Assembly (NCBI GenBank): GCA_003858485.1
Contig: RQYD01000002.1
Coordinates: 1-64,000 of the forward strand
DNA length: 64,000 nt
Direction of reading: 5' to 3'
DNA from: Clostridiales bacterium COT073_COT-073
GTDB taxonomy: Bacteria > Bacillota > Clostridia > Lachnospirales > Vallitaleaceae
Below the pieces are notes generated by a model, which saw nothing but the letters and a program-made list of their open reading frames with translations, did no database searches and had not been told where the DNA came from. Shown here one piece after another: positions 1 to 7,161 of the stretch. Both the position numbers and the translations under genes were made by a program. Numbering within the stretch: position 1 is the first letter of the stretch; every line of letters starts with the position of its first letter.

Positions 1-89
1 TCTTACGAAGTATGTGGCGAAAGCGGGGGAACCCATGTGCCCGCTCCCTGGAGCGGGATAGAGCCAAAAAAGACTGTGGGAAAGTTGAG
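1..89 (+). mobile_element. Modular hairpin element (MITE-like), right part, cut by window start
   Basis: This is the right-hand end of the dispersed element seen intact at 13496-13770. It has the last part of one hairpin module, the arm-loop-arm CCCGCTC/GAGCGGG, and the terminal GTGGGAAAGTTGAG. The left end lies outside the window. The bases after the end are TTATTAA, a TA-rich heptamer like the targets of the other copies. Confidence 0.85.
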
Positions 90-101
90 TTATTAATATA
101 A

Positions 102-149
102 AAAATAAGCTTCCGAAAACTATAAAAATCTTTTTCAGAAGCTTATTTT
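102..149 (-). terminator. Terminator of the deoR-family gene
   Basis: A perfect 12-bp inverted repeat (AAAATAAGCTTC at 102-113, GAAGCTTATTTT at 138-149) lies just after the minus-strand stop at 167. On that strand it is followed by a T run. Confidence 0.75.
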
Positions 150-166
150 CATCTTAATTCATCGGT

Positions 167-922
167 TCATCCAACACACACAAAATCAATCTTATTATCC
201 TGACATACTTTTCTTATTTCTTCATCATCACAGTGGTTTGTCACTAAAACATCAATATCTTTCAATTGATAAAAAGTTAAAAGAGCCGGTTTATTAAACT
301 TTGTCCTATCTGCCAATAATATAATTTGCTCTGCTGTCTGACAAATATAACTTTTTATTTCTGTTTCCGCAAAGTCCTGATTAGCCAATCCCTGATTGAC
401 CGATACCCCGGTAACCGCCATAAAGGCTTTGGTAATATTGATTTGCATTAATCGCTCTCGTGATTCAATTTCAATAAAGGATCGTGTTTTTCTACGAAAA
501 TGGCGTCCGACTGTATATAAGTTAACATTTTCCATTTTAACTGCTGCTTCTATGATATCCAGGCTATTAGTGAAAATAGTTAAGTTAATCTCCGGTTTAA
601 CATGTTCTAATATAGTGGCTGTTGTTGTCCCCGAATCAATATAAATAATGTCCCCTTCGTTAATCAATTCAGCCGCTTTCTTGGCAATTGCTTTCTTAGC
701 AAATAAATTTTCCGTAAATCGATTTTCAAAAGAGTTAAGCGGAACCTCCTTAAAAGTGACGCCTCCATAAAATTTCTTAATCACTCCTTCTTCATCCAGC
801 TTTTTAATATCCCGGCGAATCGTATTAATGGAAACTTGAAATGTTTCTGATAGCTCCTCAATTGATACTTTATCTTTCCCTCTCAAATAAGATTCAATTT
901 CTGTCAATCTTTGCTTTTTCAT
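167..922 (-). CDS. DeoR-family transcriptional repressor, possibly IolR
   Basis: A 251-residue sugar-responsive repressor of the DeoR/GlpR family. The N-terminus holds a winged helix-turn-helix (about residues 18-50, including VSINTIRRDIKKLDEEG) followed by the FYGGV motif. The rest is the DeoRC effector domain, with SGTTT near residue 98 and TNSLDI. I start at the ATG at 922 because AAAGG lies 9 bases upstream; an in-frame TTG at 952 lacks a good ribosome site. It is transcribed divergently from iolB, and Bacillus IolR belongs to the same family, so control of inositol genes is a reasonable inference but not proven. An insertion sequence now separates the two genes, while the repressor's likely promoter (1023-1051) remains intact. 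Confidence 0.88.
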   Translation of the reverse strand: MKKQRLTEIESYLRGKDKVSIEELSETFQVSINTIRRDIKKLDEEGVIKKFYGGVTFKEVPLNSFENRFTENLFAKKAIAKKAAELINEGDIIYIDSGTTTATILEHVKPEINLTIFTNSLDIIEAAVKMENVNLYTVGRHFRRKTRSFIEIESRERLMQINITKAFMAVTGVSVNQGLANQDFAETEIKSYICQTAEQIILLADRTKFNKPALLTFYQLKDIDVLVTNHCDDEEIRKVCQDNKIDFVCVG

Positions 923-1022
923 GTACAAACACCTTTCTTGGATTTTTGACAATCACTTAGCTTTCATTCATCTTTTCTTTCAGCATTTTGATTGAATTTA
1001 CTCTATCATAACCTTTAAAAAG

Positions 1023-1051
1023 ATTATATCAAATTTAATTAATTTAATCAA
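1023..1051 (-). promoter_or_regulatory. Promoter of the deoR-family gene
   Basis: Read on the minus strand: TTGATT (1051-1046), a 17-bp spacer, then TATAAT (1028-1023). The whole promoter lies inside the direct repeat flanking the insertion sequence. Confidence 0.65.
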
Positions 1052-1101
1052 ATATTTTTTATAAAAAGCCACTTTTATATGCAAATATTTGACATTTTTC
1101 C
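1023..1101. repeat. Left copy of 79-bp target-site duplication
   Basis: Bases 1027-1101 are identical to 3105-3179. Extending four bases left (1023 and 3101) adds three matches and one mismatch (A at 1026, T at 3104). The copies lie immediately outside the insertion sequence, as expected for a very long target duplication. Confidence 0.85.
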
Positions 1102-1139
1102 CGGGAGTTTGACACTTGCAAGTTCATAAAATCGATTCA

Positions 1140-1165
1140 AAGCTAATAAAATAGCTTATTTTTTT
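1140..1165 (+). terminator. Hairpin shielding the transposase from read-in
   Basis: AAGCTA (1140-1145) and TAGCTT (1152-1157) can pair across a 6-base loop, followed by ATT and a T run to 1165. It lies inside the left end of the insertion sequence, ahead of the transposase promoter. Confidence 0.5.
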
Positions 1166-1207
1166 GTCAAATTTTATAATTTTTTTGTAGCTATTTTCGG
1201 CTATGTG

Positions 1208-1216
1208 TGATATAAT
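1208..1216 (+). promoter_or_regulatory. Extended -10 promoter of the transposase
   Basis: TGATATAAT fits an extended -10 (TGnTATAAT). No convincing -35 is present. GGAGG at 1223-1227 serves the ATG at 1237. Confidence 0.5.
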
Positions 1217-1236
1217 AAGGATGGAGGTAAAATGAT

Positions 1237-3015
1237 ATGAAATTAACCGTAAGCAAATCCAAAAATACAGCGTCCTTTTATGTACAAAAGTCGATTCGAA
1301 AAGAAAATGGCACTTCTACAACCATCACCATTGAAAAATTAGGCACACTAGATGAAGTAAAAGCAAAAGCAAATGGCAAGGATCCTTATCAATGGGCCCA
1401 AGAGTATGTCAATGAACTGAACCGAATGGAGTATGAACACAAAAAAGAGATTATTATTCCTTATTCTCCTTCCAAACTCATGAAAAAAGGAGTACAAAAA
1501 TCTTTTAACTGCGGTTATCTCTTTTTGCAGGATATCTATTATAGTCTGGGATTAGATAAAATATGCCAAGCAATTGCTGACAAGTATAAGTTTGAATATG
1601 ACCTAAATGATATCTTGTCAAAGCTTATTTATACCCGTATCCTCTATCCATCCTCAAAACTTTCCTCCTACAAACAATCCGCCACTTTTATAGAACAACC
1701 TACTTTCAAACTTCATGATGTTTACCGTTCCCTTTCGCTTCTTTCTAAGGAAAGCGATTTCATTCAGTCAGAACTTTATAAAAACAGTCAGAACGTGCTA
1801 AGCAGACGCAAAGATATTCTCTATTATGACTGTACCAACTTCTATTTTGAAATCGAAGAAGCCGACGAACTAAGAAAATATGGCAAAGCCAAACAAAACA
1901 AACCGCTTCCTATTGTCGGTATGGGATTGTTCATGGATTATGACGGCATTCCTCTGGCCTTTGATATTTATCCGGGGAATCAGAATGAACAGCCTACCCT
2001 AAAGCCGATCGAAAAAAGATTGCTTAACGATTATGGTCTTGAGGATATCATCGTATGTACCGATGCCGGACTTTCCTCAAAGGAAAACAGAAAATTCAAT
2101 GACAAGTCTCTGTTTGGGCATAGAACGAGAAGTTTTATTACAACCCAGTCCATCAAACAGCTTCCCGAGCACCTTAAGGATTATGCCCTTGACAAAGATG
2201 GTTGGCACCTGCCCGGTGACAGCAAAGTATATAACCTGGATGATATCAGCGAAGAAGCGGATTACAACAAGGTTTTCTATAAAGACCGATGGATTGTCGA
2301 AGATATTTCAGGCAAGAAGAAAAAAGAAGGAGACAAACCATTAGAGCAACACCTTATCGTTTCCTTTTCCCCGAAATATAAAAAGTATCAGCAAACAATT
2401 CGGCAGGGACAGATTAATAGAGCCATGAAATTGATTGAAACCGGAAACTATAAACGGAGAGCGAAAAATCAAAACGATCCTCATCGCTTCATTGAGCATA
2501 AGGCTGTTACCGCGGACGGCGAAGTATGTTCTAACGATCATGTATTCTTAAATGAGGAGGCTATCCGCAACGAACAACAGTATGATGGTTTCTATGCGGT
2601 ATGTACGAACCTTGAGAATATAAGGGTAGAACAGATTATAAGGATAAATCGGAAACGCCGGGAGATTGAAGAATGTTTCCGAATTATGAAAACAGAGTTT
2701 AAGGCAAGACCTGTCTATGTGCAAACCCAGGACCATATAAAGTCACATTTTCTTACCTGTTTTCTATCCCTTTTTATTTTCCGAATCCTTGAAAAAAGAC
2801 TTGGGGAAGCGTTCACTTGTGAGGAGATCTCCGATACATTAAGAGATATGATAATGGCCAGACCTGGAGAAAAACTTGGATATATAGCCAGTTATACAAG
2901 AACCGATTTGACTGATAGACTACATGAAACTGCTGGATTTAGAACGGACTATGAGATTATAAACGACATAAACATGAAAAAAATAATACGAAAAACAAAA
3001 AAGAAAAAGAAGTAA
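1237..3015 (+). CDS. IS1634/IS4-type DDE transposase
   Basis: A 592-residue transposase that cuts and joins the element's ends. The DDE triad can be traced to Asp in YYDCTNFYFE (about residue 199), Asp in VCTDAGLSS (about 276) and Glu in RKRREIEECFRIMK (about 478), which matches the Y-R-E-K signature of the IS4 superfamily. The N-terminus (residues 1-110) is a typical accessory region of IS1634-type proteins. The C-terminus is very basic, ending in a lysine-rich tail. GGAGG lies 9 bases before the ATG. The frame is intact, so the element may still be active. A strong hairpin terminator follows at 3041-3084. Confidence 0.92.
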   Translation: MKLTVSKSKNTASFYVQKSIRKENGTSTTITIEKLGTLDEVKAKANGKDPYQWAQEYVNELNRMEYEHKKEIIIPYSPSKLMKKGVQKSFNCGYLFLQDIYYSLGLDKICQAIADKYKFEYDLNDILSKLIYTRILYPSSKLSSYKQSATFIEQPTFKLHDVYRSLSLLSKESDFIQSELYKNSQNVLSRRKDILYYDCTNFYFEIEEADELRKYGKAKQNKPLPIVGMGLFMDYDGIPLAFDIYPGNQNEQPTLKPIEKRLLNDYGLEDIIVCTDAGLSSKENRKFNDKSLFGHRTRSFITTQSIKQLPEHLKDYALDKDGWHLPGDSKVYNLDDISEEADYNKVFYKDRWIVEDISGKKKKEGDKPLEQHLIVSFSPKYKKYQQTIRQGQINRAMKLIETGNYKRRAKNQNDPHRFIEHKAVTADGEVCSNDHVFLNEEAIRNEQQYDGFYAVCTNLENIRVEQIIRINRKRREIEECFRIMKTEFKARPVYVQTQDHIKSHFLTCFLSLFIFRILEKRLGEAFTCEEISDTLRDMIMARPGEKLGYIASYTRTDLTDRLHETAGFRTDYEIINDINMKKIIRKTKKKKK

Positions 3016-3040
3016 TAAATAGCTACATTTTACAAGATTT

Positions 3041-3084
3041 AAAAAGCGTGAAAAACCTTGATATTAAAGACTTTCACGCTTTTT
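3041..3084. terminator. Transposase terminator (bidirectional)
   Basis: AAAAAGCGTGAAA (3041-3053) pairs perfectly with TTTCACGCTTTTT (3072-3084). It is A/T-flanked on both sides, so it can stop transcription in both directions. Confidence 0.8.
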
Positions 3085-3100
3085 AACTGTCAAAGATGGG

Positions 3101-3179
3101 ATTTTATCAAATTTAATTAATTTAATCAAATATTTTTTATAAAAAGCCACTTTTATATGCAAATATTTGACATTTTTCC
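3101..3179. repeat. Right copy of 79-bp target-site duplication
   Basis: Direct repeat of 1023-1101 with a single difference at 3104. It restores the -35 region of the iolB promoter on this side of the insertion. Confidence 0.85.
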
Positions 3180-3195
3180 ATTTTTTCATTATAAT
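3167..3195 (+). promoter_or_regulatory. iolB promoter
   Basis: Perfect consensus TTGACA (3167-3172), 17-bp spacer, TATAAT (3190-3195). The duplicated segment ends at 3179, inside the spacer, so the -35 belongs to the duplication and the -10 does not. Confidence 0.8.
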
Positions 3196-3233
3196 ATACT
3201 CATAATTTACCCATTTTACTTAAGGAGGTGTCT

Positions 3234-4052
3234 ATGAGTCAATTATTAATCCATCCTCAAAAGAATAATTTTCCAGGTCTACAGCTGGTTCAGGATATCA
3301 ATATCCAAAACTCTGTCTTAAGGTATATCGGCTTAAAAGTGCTCTCGTTCGACCCGGGCAGTGAATATTCCGAAAATTTAATTACATACGAAGCATGTAT
3401 TGTTGTGCTGGAAGGTAAAATAAATGTTTCAACTCAAAACAAGACTTACTATAATGTTGGTCAACGGCAACATATTTTTGATAAGCTTCCAACTGATAGT
3501 GTATATATTCCAGTAAATCAAGGCTTTTGTCTCCAAAGCATAACCTCATCAAAAATAGCAATTTGTTATGCCGTGACCGACAACACAACAAAATCCCCAG
3601 TACTCATTCCCGCTGCCAAAAATGATGTGGAACGACGTGGCAATCATCATTGCCGGCGATTGGTTCATACCATGTTAAGTGATAATTCCACAATTTCTGA
3701 CAAACTTCTGGTAACTGAGGTTTATACTGAGGGCGGAAATTGGTCAAGTTATCCTCCTCACAAACATGATACGGATAATCTTCCCCACGAAAGTTTATTG
3801 GAAGAAATCTATTACCACGAAACAGATAAGGACAGTGGATTTGTTATCCAAAAAGTATATACTGACGATTTATCCTTAGATGAAACTTATACAGTCCGAA
3901 ATCATGATATTGTCCTTGTCCCTAAGGGTTATCATCCGGTGGGTGTGCCGGATGGATATTGTAGTTACTATCTTAATGTTATGGCTGGTCCAATCAAAAA
4001 ATGGAAATTTCATAATGACCCCAATCATGAATTTTTATTAAAACGCCGCTAA
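3234..4052 (+). CDS. iolB: 5-deoxy-glucuronate isomerase IolB
   Basis: A 272-residue cupin enzyme of myo-inositol catabolism that converts 5-deoxy-D-glucuronate to 2-deoxy-5-keto-D-gluconate. The metal-binding bicupin signatures are plain: NWSSYPPHKHD (about residue 170), LLEEIYYHE, and GYHPVGVPDGY followed by YYLNVMAGP and WKFHNDPNHE near the end. These are diagnostic of IolB and distinguish it from KduI. I use the ATG at 3234, with AAGGAGG five bases upstream, rather than the GTG at 3228 inside that ribosome site. No other iol gene is in the window, so the pathway genes must be elsewhere. The divergent DeoR-family regulator is the likely controller. Confidence 0.95.
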   Translation: MSQLLIHPQKNNFPGLQLVQDINIQNSVLRYIGLKVLSFDPGSEYSENLITYEACIVVLEGKINVSTQNKTYYNVGQRQHIFDKLPTDSVYIPVNQGFCLQSITSSKIAICYAVTDNTTKSPVLIPAAKNDVERRGNHHCRRLVHTMLSDNSTISDKLLVTEVYTEGGNWSSYPPHKHDTDNLPHESLLEEIYYHETDKDSGFVIQKVYTDDLSLDETYTVRNHDIVLVPKGYHPVGVPDGYCSYYLNVMAGPIKKWKFHNDPNHEFLLKRR

Positions 4053-4118
4053 ATCACTAATATCTCAATGGTATAAACATAAATTATACTCAACAGCTAT
4101 AAGGCATTTTCGCCAGAA

Positions 4119-4214
4119 AGAACGGTTGCACTTTAAAGTTTTCGCCAGGATATTGCCTATCATTTCTACATTTCAAACAATCTCCTGATAAAAATTCTAT
4201 CTTGCAACCGCTCT
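4119..4214. terminator. Two-tier long-loop hairpin between iolB and the VWA gene
   Basis: The outer arm AGAACGGTTGCA (4119-4130) pairs with TGCAACCGCTCT (4203-4214). Inside, CAGGATATTG can pair with CAATCTCCTG. It lies between two convergent genes and runs into T-rich sequence on the plus side. Its layout matches 8109-8198, 13779-13870, 26591-26693 and 57024-57110. Confidence 0.6.
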
Positions 4215-4230
4215 TTTCTCCTGCTTTCCC

Positions 4231-6027
4231 CTACATCATTTTGTGCAATTCTTTTTTCAAATAGCTGCCAACAATTTTGGAAAACTGATTCATTTTTTTG
4301 ATATAGGCAAAATCATGGCCATAGATTTTTTTCTGGGCCGGCAGATCTTCATCCAGGCCATTAAATACCCCCAGGACGGAAATCCCTTGCAATCGAAGTT
4401 TACGTACTTCCATAGCAGTATCTCTGACTGCTACCTCACCGGTATAATCTTTTAATTCCGGCTTTTCGGCATCTTTCTTAAAAACCCGGACATCATTAGG
4501 TTTGCCATCACTAAAGATAATTAAAATTTTATTTTCTTCTGCCCGCTTTTGCATAAAATCAGCCACTGCTCTAAAAGCAAAGCCGTCCCGATTCATGCCG
4601 GTACCAAAGAAATCAAAGATTTTCTTGTTTTGTCCCCTTGGTGAATCATAATCCCGATATACCCGAAAAATGGTATAATCCAGAAATGTTGCATAAGCAC
4701 TAACCCGACAGGGAATATTACATAAACTCAAGGCCTGCGCAATAATGTAGCCCTGCATGGCCACCTGTGCCTGTCTTTCTGTTTGCGAACCACTTCCATC
4801 TAATAGAATTTCAACTGCCAAATTGCCGATCTCATTTTTTTGAATATGCTCAAACACCTTATAATCATGGAGGATTACCGTTCGCCAAACTTCACCGGAG
4901 CGCAGACTCCCGTAATTGGCCCGCCGGCTATCCTCCTTACTATCCGGCAGCAGCGCATGGATTAATAAAGAACGAAGGCTTTCAATCTGCCGCCGGCATT
5001 CCCGGTCATGGACTTCCAAATACTCCAAATTAAAATTACGCTGTTCCTCCAAAAAACGCAGCTGATAATCACTGACCAAACTGCTAAAATCACCATCGGT
5101 TACATATAACTTTTTGTGTTCATGGATACCGGTGCTGATTTTATTTTCTATTCGCTCAATTTCTGATTGTGGCAGAAGCATATCACCAAAGAAAATCCGC
5201 ACCTTATCAAAATCACTTTGCTTTCTTTTTGCTGCCAATTTAGCCAGCTTGGCCGCTTTTTCTTTTTCCTGTTCCAAATATTTGGCCGCTGCCTTGCCCC
5301 GATAACTATTTGGATTAAACTCCGCATCCACTATTTTTTCTACAAAAACTTCGGCTGCTGCCACTCCGCGCTTTACCTGCATAAAGGTTTCATCTGGCTT
5401 ATATGGGGTTACTTTGCGTTTGGCCGCTTCCGTTTTTTCGACCTGCCCTGCTATTTTATTAATCCAATTTTCCGTAGCAAAGTAATTGCCATAAATTTCT
5501 TCCACTCCAGTGATCAGTCCAGCCGTGTCCCCGGCTGTCTCTGCTACCCGGGTAATATCAGCCAGCAGTGCTTTGAGCCAGATATTATCTTTCCCCAATT
5601 TCCCCTGTTTGTCAGCATAATATGCCTTTTCCAGAATTTCGGCACTGGTTTTGGCCAGTCGTTTTTCCCATTGGCGGTCTGCCAAACCATAAAATTCTGC
5701 TGCCAAATCCTTGACTGCCGGGCGCTCTGCTGCTAATTTAGGCAAACAATATTCTTCTAAAGCAATGCGCAGGATCTGGGAAAAAATCGCATAAAAATCC
5801 GGTTTTGTACTGATATGCTGATCAAAAGCCCGAAGTAAAGAGATATCAGCATACAAAAAAACACTGCCCCAAACCAGCGCTAAATGTCTTGCCTTGGCAC
5901 TTTCCTTCATGACAATAAAGTTTGGCATATCTTTGGAATAGTCCTCAAGAATCGTCCAAAAAATATTTTGTGCCCTTTCCCTTATCCAGTCTTCTGTCAT
6001 CTTATCTGATAATTGATTATAAATCAT
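4231..6027 (-). CDS. VWA-domain protein, NorD/CobT-like partner of MoxR ATPase
   Basis: A 598-residue cytosolic protein with a C-terminal von Willebrand A domain. The MIDAS metal site is visible as LLDGSGSQTE (about residue 410), and a later strand carries FSDGKPND (about 507), a signature of the NorD/CobT class. The N-terminal 380 residues are helical and charged, with a Lys/Ala/Glu-rich stretch near 245-280. It lies 219 bp downstream of a MoxR-type AAA ATPase on the same strand. Such pairs act as metal-dependent chaperones that insert cofactors or activate a target protein. No nitric oxide reductase or cobaltochelatase gene is present, so the client is unknown. No signal peptide is seen. 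Confidence 0.8.
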   Translation of the reverse strand: MIYNQLSDKMTEDWIRERAQNIFWTILEDYSKDMPNFIVMKESAKARHLALVWGSVFLYADISLLRAFDQHISTKPDFYAIFSQILRIALEEYCLPKLAAERPAVKDLAAEFYGLADRQWEKRLAKTSAEILEKAYYADKQGKLGKDNIWLKALLADITRVAETAGDTAGLITGVEEIYGNYFATENWINKIAGQVEKTEAAKRKVTPYKPDETFMQVKRGVAAAEVFVEKIVDAEFNPNSYRGKAAAKYLEQEKEKAAKLAKLAAKRKQSDFDKVRIFFGDMLLPQSEIERIENKISTGIHEHKKLYVTDGDFSSLVSDYQLRFLEEQRNFNLEYLEVHDRECRRQIESLRSLLIHALLPDSKEDSRRANYGSLRSGEVWRTVILHDYKVFEHIQKNEIGNLAVEILLDGSGSQTERQAQVAMQGYIIAQALSLCNIPCRVSAYATFLDYTIFRVYRDYDSPRGQNKKIFDFFGTGMNRDGFAFRAVADFMQKRAEENKILIIFSDGKPNDVRVFKKDAEKPELKDYTGEVAVRDTAMEVRKLRLQGISVLGVFNGLDEDLPAQKKIYGHDFAYIKKMNQFSKIVGSYLKKELHKMM

Positions 6028-6168
6028 AGCTTACTCTTTCTGTTTAAACTCACTGTCGCCAAGCCCAGTACAACTTAGCCAGGAATTTGCTGCTGGCAGC
6101 CCCTGATATAGTCCGGATGGCGATTAATTTTGCCAGCATCTATGTGCTTTCATCTATTTTTTTATATA

Positions 6169-6190
6169 CTCAACTTTCCCACAGTCTTTT
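6169..6190 (-). repeat. Remnant end of the modular hairpin element
   Basis: CTCAACTTTCCCACAGTCTTTT matches the right terminal repeat exactly, but the following bases do not continue the element. It is a solo, truncated end between the MoxR and VWA genes. Confidence 0.65.
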
Positions 6191-6246
6191 ACCTGAGCGA
6201 CTGCCATTGACTGTAAAGGTATTGATACTGCCACTGTATTTTTGAT

Positions 6247-7161
6247 TTATTTTTTAAATATACTTTCCGCAGTCGCATTTTTAGGAATACGCAGATCAAT
6301 CACATCCTGAACCAGTTCTTTTTCAAATTCATCAAATACCTTCCCGGCTATCCCCATTTTAACTGCCAAAGCTGGTTTCAAACCGCGCTTTACTGCCCGA
6401 ATCGCTCCTAATAATCCACGAAAATCAATGGCTTTGGTTGAAATTTCTGAATGCAATGATTTCTTTTGTAAATCTAAAAATAATCCGGTAAAAGCCGCCG
6501 CACTTTCATCTGTTAAATTGGGGAACTCTCCCAGCAAAATTTGCATAATTTTATCTTCACTCATGGGCGGAATATCAATCACCATAAAGCGGGACGCAAA
6601 AGCCTCATTTAGTTCCTTAGTGCCAACATAGCCGTAATTCATGGTGCCAATAAAGCGGGTGGCTTCATGCAACTCAATTTGCTGATAACCAGGAACATCA
6701 ATTTTTCGGCGATAATCCAGCGCCGAATACATAACGGCCATTGCTTCATTTTTCGCCATATTGATTTCATCCAGCACACCAAATCCGCCATATTTCGCAC
6801 ATTCATATATACTGCCGGGACGAAAGCGAACTTCTCCACCAGTAAAGGTATCCGTACCAATCAATGCACTTTGGTCAATATTAATATGAAAGGATGTCGT
6901 CCACTGCGGCCTTCCGAAAACTGCTGTCAAATTCTCGGCCAATACATTTTTACCGGTAGCTTTTATTCCTGTTAAAAGCAAATTTTCCCCGCCTAAAAGG
7001 GCGGCAATTGCCATTTCCCAAATTTCCTTACCATAATAGCGATAATATGGTACCGGTACTCTATCTGCTACTTCGCTTTCCACCTTATAAAAGCGCCGAA
7101 AAGCTCTGACTTCTTCAACTAAGCTTTGACTTACTCCTTGCTCTGCTAAAAACTCTAACAT
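6247..7161 (-). CDS. MoxR-type AAA+ ATPase (CobS/NorQ-like)
   Basis: A 304-residue AAA+ ATPase. Walker A is GIKATGKN (residues 65-72), Walker B is FGVLDEINM (about 128-136), and sensor 1 is in RFIGTMNYGY, followed by an ASRF arginine-finger region. The family forms hexamers that use ATP to remodel a client together with a VWA protein, here the next gene downstream. GAGG five bases before the ATG supports the start. A minus-strand promoter is visible at 7432-7459, so the transcript has a 5' leader of about 270 bases that contains a decayed copy of the hairpin element. Length and motifs are normal for the family. Confidence 0.85.
   Translation of the reverse strand: MLEFLAEQGVSQSLVEEVRAFRRFYKVESEVADRVPVPYYRYYGKEIWEMAIAALLGGENLLLTGIKATGKNVLAENLTAVFGRPQWTTSFHINIDQSALIGTDTFTGGEVRFRPGSIYECAKYGGFGVLDEINMAKNEAMAVMYSALDYRRKIDVPGYQQIELHEATRFIGTMNYGYVGTKELNEAFASRFMVIDIPPMSEDKIMQILLGEFPNLTDESAAAFTGLFLDLQKKSLHSEISTKAIDFRGLLGAIRAVKRGLKPALAVKMGIAGKVFDEFEKELVQDVIDLRIPKNATAESIFKK

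Follow-up and report, generated by a model that had tools for sequence, protein, structure and literature searches.

Insertion at predicted sigma-A promoters by a clade of IS1634-family elements with long target duplications

In the window, i.e., the whole stretch of 64,000 nucleotides analysed here from Clostridiales bacterium COT-073 (contig RQYD01000002.1), an insertion sequence (IS) lies between a regulator gene and iolB, and the long direct repeat around it overlaps predicted promoters of both neighbours. This locus raises the question of what fixed the position of the insertion, and of how an element could settle there with neither gene damaged.

The insertion and its two neighbouring promoters

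The element is 1,999 bp long (1102-3100, plus strand), its boundaries being deduced from the direct repeats and from a comparison with the termini of related copies. Its terminal inverted repeats are imperfect (CGGGAGTTTGACAC, 1102-1115; CTGTCAAAGATGGG, 3087-3100). It encodes a 592-aa transposase of the DDE type (1237-3015, plus strand) matching NF033559 (transpos_IS1634) and PF01609. The score against NF033559 (335.7 bits for a cut-off of 100) places it, by profile match, in the IS1634 family. Its profile matches are limited to this and other IS4-related models and do not make it a Mutator-like transposase. The catalytic residues D198, D276 and E478 are invariant and R474 and K485 are present, while the YREK motif is kept in part only, the Y being absent at the expected place. 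According to the 2008 survey, members of this family measure 1,500-2,000 bp and have C-----YT ends (PMC2266710), which fits the length of the element and its ends CGGGAGTT and CCCATCTT. No second full copy was found in its own genome, no useful relative of the transposase among solved structures, and no match for it in PHROGs.

The raw direct repeat (1022-1101 and 3100-3179) is identical at 79 of 80 positions. As the G that opens this repeat could equally belong to the IS end, the duplication proper was counted as 79 bp, with a left copy at 1023-1101, whose boundaries come from related copies, and a right copy at 3101-3179. The copies differ only at 1026 (A) and 3104 (T). The next best repeats within positions 1-4800 reach at most 31 nt with 65-89% identity; a 79-bp repeat with a single mismatch is far beyond chance. 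The duplication of a 79-bp target around the element, claimed in a preliminary description of this DNA, is thus borne out. An empty site of this insertion was not found among 146 related genomes. For another insertion of the same clade, L105 in Lachnoanaerobaculum gingivalis, a continuous sequence of L. orale (92%) spans the left flank, one target copy and the right flank. Since this empty site has only one target copy, the repeat at L105 was single before insertion and is a true duplication, which confirms that such repeats in the clade arise by insertion.

To the left, a DeoR/GlpR-family regulator gene (167-922, minus strand; PF00455, PF08220), called deoR below, reached no NCBIfam equivalog cut-off in the profile search. 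To the right, iolB (3234-4052, plus strand) encodes a 5-deoxy-glucuronate isomerase (TIGR04378, 304.3 bits, cut-off 205). These profile matches confirm the identities initially proposed for both genes. Adjoining iolB, a CobT-type VWA-domain protein is encoded beside an AAA_5 ATPase (4231-7161, minus strand), which resembles a MoxR/VWA pair.

The predicted deoR promoter (TTGATT-17-TATAAT, 1023-1051, minus strand; 10/12 in a consensus scan) consists of TTGATT at 1051-1046 and TATAAT at 1028-1023, with a TG preceding the -10 box. This -10 box (1023-1028) forms the first six bases of the duplication. The predicted iolB promoter (TTGACA-17-TATAAT, 3167-3195, plus strand) matches the consensus at 12/12, in agreement with the perfect 17-bp distance described previously. 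Its -35 hexamer (3167-3172) lies in the right copy and its -10 hexamer (3190-3195) in the native right flank, the duplication ending, as already reported, within the spacer, at 3179. A second copy of the deoR promoter (TTGATT-17-TAAAAT, 3101-3129, minus strand; 9/12) points into the IS right end; the difference between 1026 and 3104 turns the -10 box of this redundant promoter from TATAAT into TAAAAT. An ATCAAAT motif lies over each of the two deoR promoter boxes, -10 and -35 (1028-1034 and 1047-1053; 19 bp apart), and the same pair is found in the right target copy (3106-3112 and 3125-3131). It is a possible operator of the DeoR-family regulator, which would now be present in two copies.

No gene is damaged in the window because the left copy carries the deoR promoter and the right copy the iolB promoter. 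The preliminary description rightly held that the left copy keeps the deoR promoter whole, as left flank and left copy together give the native sequence. It also held that the duplication restores the iolB promoter. This promoter is indeed intact across the right copy and right flank; however, nothing was specially rebuilt, because any duplication keeps both outer junctions native, and the intact promoter is a by-product. The informative end of the duplication, which that description overlooked, is the other one, at the predicted deoR -10 box, where, judging from the related sites, the clade inserts as a rule. The iolB-side end lies at an essentially unspecific distance from this anchor.

A predicted promoter at one end of the duplication across the clade

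Related copies were gathered from named genomes and by whole-genome searches, and their duplications were extracted. The main set comprised 54 distinct, independent insertions across Bacillota. The anchor hypothesis was formed on a first logo of 47 sites, and a set of 26 sites fetched afterwards brought the total to 80. In the 2008 survey, target duplications of the IS1634 family are either typically of 5-6 bp or long and variable, as for IS1634 and IS1549 (PMC2266710). The 79-bp duplication of the window and those of the 80 clade sites (29-352 bp, with 13-14 bp in one case) are of the long-repeat type, not of the 5-6 bp type.

In the subgroups near the window element, the duplication end touching the IS right end starts with a sequence like ATTATA, the reverse complement of TATAAT. 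In promoter orientation, the logo of the 54 sites is dominated by T-7 (53 sites), A-11 (49), T-35 (44) and T-12 (43), followed by T-34 (36), T-15 (30), G-14 (22) and G-33 (21). Matches to TTGACA peak at a spacer of 17 bp with a mean of 3.06, against a background over 82 offsets with a mean of 1.68 and a maximum of 2.04; small excesses are also seen at 16 and 18 bp, and the TG extension is weak. A promoter score with fixed weights, taken from general knowledge and untrained on these sites, was applied to about 1,370 nearby positions on both strands. The anchor ranked first in 21 of the 54 sites and within the top 1% in 38 (0.5 expected), while the same score on the opposite strand, at the other duplication end and in the sister grade gave counts of 0-1. 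The later 26-site set behaved in the same way: T-7 in 25 of 26, rank 1 in nine, top 1% in 15, and a mean of 3.04 at spacer 17 versus 1.69 (sd 0.18). When both sets are pooled, the anchor takes first rank among about 1,370 positions in 30 of 80 sites, and T-7 is present in 78. About a quarter to a third of the anchors have poor promoter scores, and most of these belong to the most distant subgroups of the clade. Furthermore, 19 other right ends with no detected duplication are mostly also followed by an ATTATA-like sequence. Recognised in all sites by its sequence, the duplication end at the IS right end is, as a rule of the clade, a predicted sigma-A promoter pointing away from the element.

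Where the duplication meets the IS left end, its sequence is nearly unspecific, with a preference for C at the last base, and no helical phasing of duplication lengths was seen. A polymerase footprint was considered as a minimum duplication length and is ruled out by a clean case of 13-14 bp (L331), with others of 29 and 33 bp. No duplication could be detected in roughly a dozen copies whose two ends are intact; L074, L127, L132, L157, L159, L166 and L174 are of this kind, with a -10-like sequence at the right end and an unrelated left flank. Copies of this kind, in which no clear sign of a deleted downstream gene start was seen, could result from recombination, from a deletion made during insertion or from a very long duplication.

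These data bear on the explanation given initially for the window, a chance insertion at the iolB promoter made harmless by a duplication that rebuilt it. As this explanation expects, the right copy leaves the iolB promoter intact. However, the non-random, conserved end lies at deoR and not at iolB, and hardly any sequence preference is seen at the far end, which makes such a chance event very improbable. Preference for easily melted, AT-rich DNA, with -10 boxes being struck since they melt, deserves just as little credence. The anchor is AT-rich, and the family was described as making AT-rich target duplications in the 2008 survey (PMC2266710), but such a preference explains neither the exact 17-bp distance of the -35 hexamer nor why the orientation is constant and the anchor ranks at the top as a promoter within intergenic DNA that is itself AT-rich.

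The limits of the rule within the family are given by a sister grade, i.e., the other sampled IS1634-family elements of Bacillota, which doubles as a control for the extraction of duplications. In the protein tree, a branch supported at 100/100 has all promoter-anchored elements on the same side. The sister grade shares the family, the long duplications and a similar size with the anchored clade; yet, with identical extraction, it shows no promoter at either duplication end and differs by a preference for T-tracts at the IS left end (loci L237, L240, L241, L253, L259, L263, L270, L273 and L279, among others). It may follow a different anchor rule. Its duplications reach more than 1 kb, and in a minority the T-tract end is the tail of a terminator hairpin. 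Terminator targeting by these elements was rejected, as the hairpin is in the top 5% for only 5 of 29 sites, which points mainly to a T-tract preference.

Gene context and the hairpin at the right end

Anchors are intergenic in 46 of the 54 sites, and in 40 of these 46 the left-hand gene is read from the anchoring promoter, as deoR is in the window. Only four anchors lie within open reading frames (ORFs) of at least 100 aa, for 56.5 expected, whereas far ends do so in 32 of 76 cases. A single insertion of 76 interrupts such an ORF, while random placement nearby, with the lengths kept, would give 47.7. This is because the duplication starts in intergenic DNA and runs into the neighbour, so that the outer junctions stay native. 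The previous suggestion that a long duplication can make an insertion in a promoter region harmless therefore holds well beyond the window. Promoter anchoring explains how these elements can spread through gene-dense genomes and do hardly any damage.

Random insertion followed by selection would also leave intergenic survivors, and a purge of gene-breaking insertions is to be expected. However, selection cannot account for a junction held to a single -10 base (T-7 in 78 of 80) together with a far end that ranges over more than 300 bp, and the sister-grade elements, treated identically, lack the promoter signal. The likelihood of this explanation is practically negligible.

Two plasmid insertions serve as examples. 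In a Ligilactobacillus salivarius plasmid (L331), the element has inserted at the TATAAT that precedes the erm(C) leader, and its duplication measures 13-14 bp (2350-2363 and 4421-4434); because this duplication is so short, the IS left end has taken the place of the native upstream part of the erm(C) promoter. The element on a Carnobacterium maltaromaticum plasmid precedes a PTS IIA gene by about 55 bp, and a perfect TTGACA lies at the 17-bp spacing.

Duplication of the anchor leaves a second promoter copy directed at the element. In the window, a hairpin with T-tracts on both strands, a predicted bidirectional terminator, is found at 3039-3086 (minimum free energy -20.1 kcal/mol on the minus strand and -17.6 kcal/mol on the plus strand, z about -6.8). 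Immediately interior to the inverted repeat, all 31 distinct right ends of the clade carry a strong hairpin with a U-tract, turned towards the duplicated promoter, with a mean z of about -4.9 for -0.4 in controls; in the sister grade, 12 of 25 have z below -2. The predicted hairpin probably stops the second promoter copy from firing into the IS and thus insulates it, or it may simply terminate the transposase transcript.

A possible mechanism and its relatives

Taken together, the sites argue that the clade very probably inserts at sigma-A promoters, with the right end fixed beside the -10 box and a nearly unspecific far end upstream. Comparison of the sites shows that the junction between the IS right end and the target falls immediately next to the -10 box, on its -7 side, in a constant orientation. 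In the window, the deoR-family promoter is the anchor, the far end falling 79 bp away inside the iolB spacer. With the usual DDE chemistry, the right end would be linked to the template strand, between -7 and -6, and the left end would be attached, farther upstream, to the non-template strand. Recruitment could be due to promoter-bound sigma-A or RNA polymerase; one end would attack at the melted -10 while the other is captured upstream, and the long stagger would be filled by strand-displacement repair, leaving the duplicated promoter head-on against the IS right end. An IS1634-family transposase has been linked to the sliding clamp (review PMC5371812), which would fit a synthesis step.

The most specific version of this scheme takes the sigma-A open complex, i.e., the promoter-bound RNA polymerase, as the target itself: the template would be attacked at -7/-6, the second end caught almost randomly upstream, and the promoter duplicated by strand displacement. 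It is advanced tentatively, as a plausible reading that falls somewhat short of probable. If true, it would explain the long variable repeats of the clade and perhaps those of IS1634 and IS1549.

Alternatively, the transposase could itself read promoter-like DNA (TATAAT with TTG 17 bp away), with neither sigma factor nor RNA polymerase; the insertion would have an identical anatomy under another guide. Some DDE elements do show direct sequence preferences, and the spacer peak at 17 bp is sharp. However, the logo resembles that of sigma-A, with A-11 and T-7 strongest, the weak TG and the excesses at 16 and 18 bp, and the transposase would need to mimic sigma-A in many hosts. This objection is not decisive, and direct reading is possible, though somewhat less likely than not.

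Promoter anchoring gives a first clue to a long-standing question about the family. Its long variable repeats were reported in 1998-1999, with lengths of 8-514 bp, and the 2008 survey knew of no model for their variable length (PMC2266710). As one end of the long duplication in this clade is not variable but fixed to the -10 of a host promoter, the mechanism is directly testable; the insertion sites also offer a readout of promoter positions in unstudied bacteria. A search of openly accessible papers found no earlier account that links promoter targeting with the long repeats for IS1634, so that priority is uncertain. IS1634 from Mycoplasma mycoides and IS1549 from Mycobacterium smegmatis belong to the same family (NF033559) and share long variable direct repeats with the clade, but no fixed promoter end is described for either in the published description (PMC2266710).

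Outside bacteria, the yeast retrotransposons Ty1 and Ty3 are also led to transcription start regions by the transcription machinery (review PMC5371812). This is a functional analogy only, as these are eukaryotic retroelements that rely on the RNA polymerase III machinery and on different enzymes.

The closest parallel is found among the Mutator-like DDE elements that target sigma-A promoters, namely the TnGBS conjugative transposons, the ISLre2 family and the ISKra4-group (PMC3942029). Like the clade, they insert at sigma-A promoters in one orientation only and have their right inverted repeat beside the promoter. However, as described in the same source, they insert 15-17 bp upstream of the -35, whereas the right end of the clade lies on the -7 side of the -10; their transposases belong to an unrelated family, and a long duplication carrying the promoter is not described there (PMC3942029). 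The clade works like these elements, yet is not a member of their group: it would be a second, unrelated DDE lineage that has converged on sigma-A promoters.
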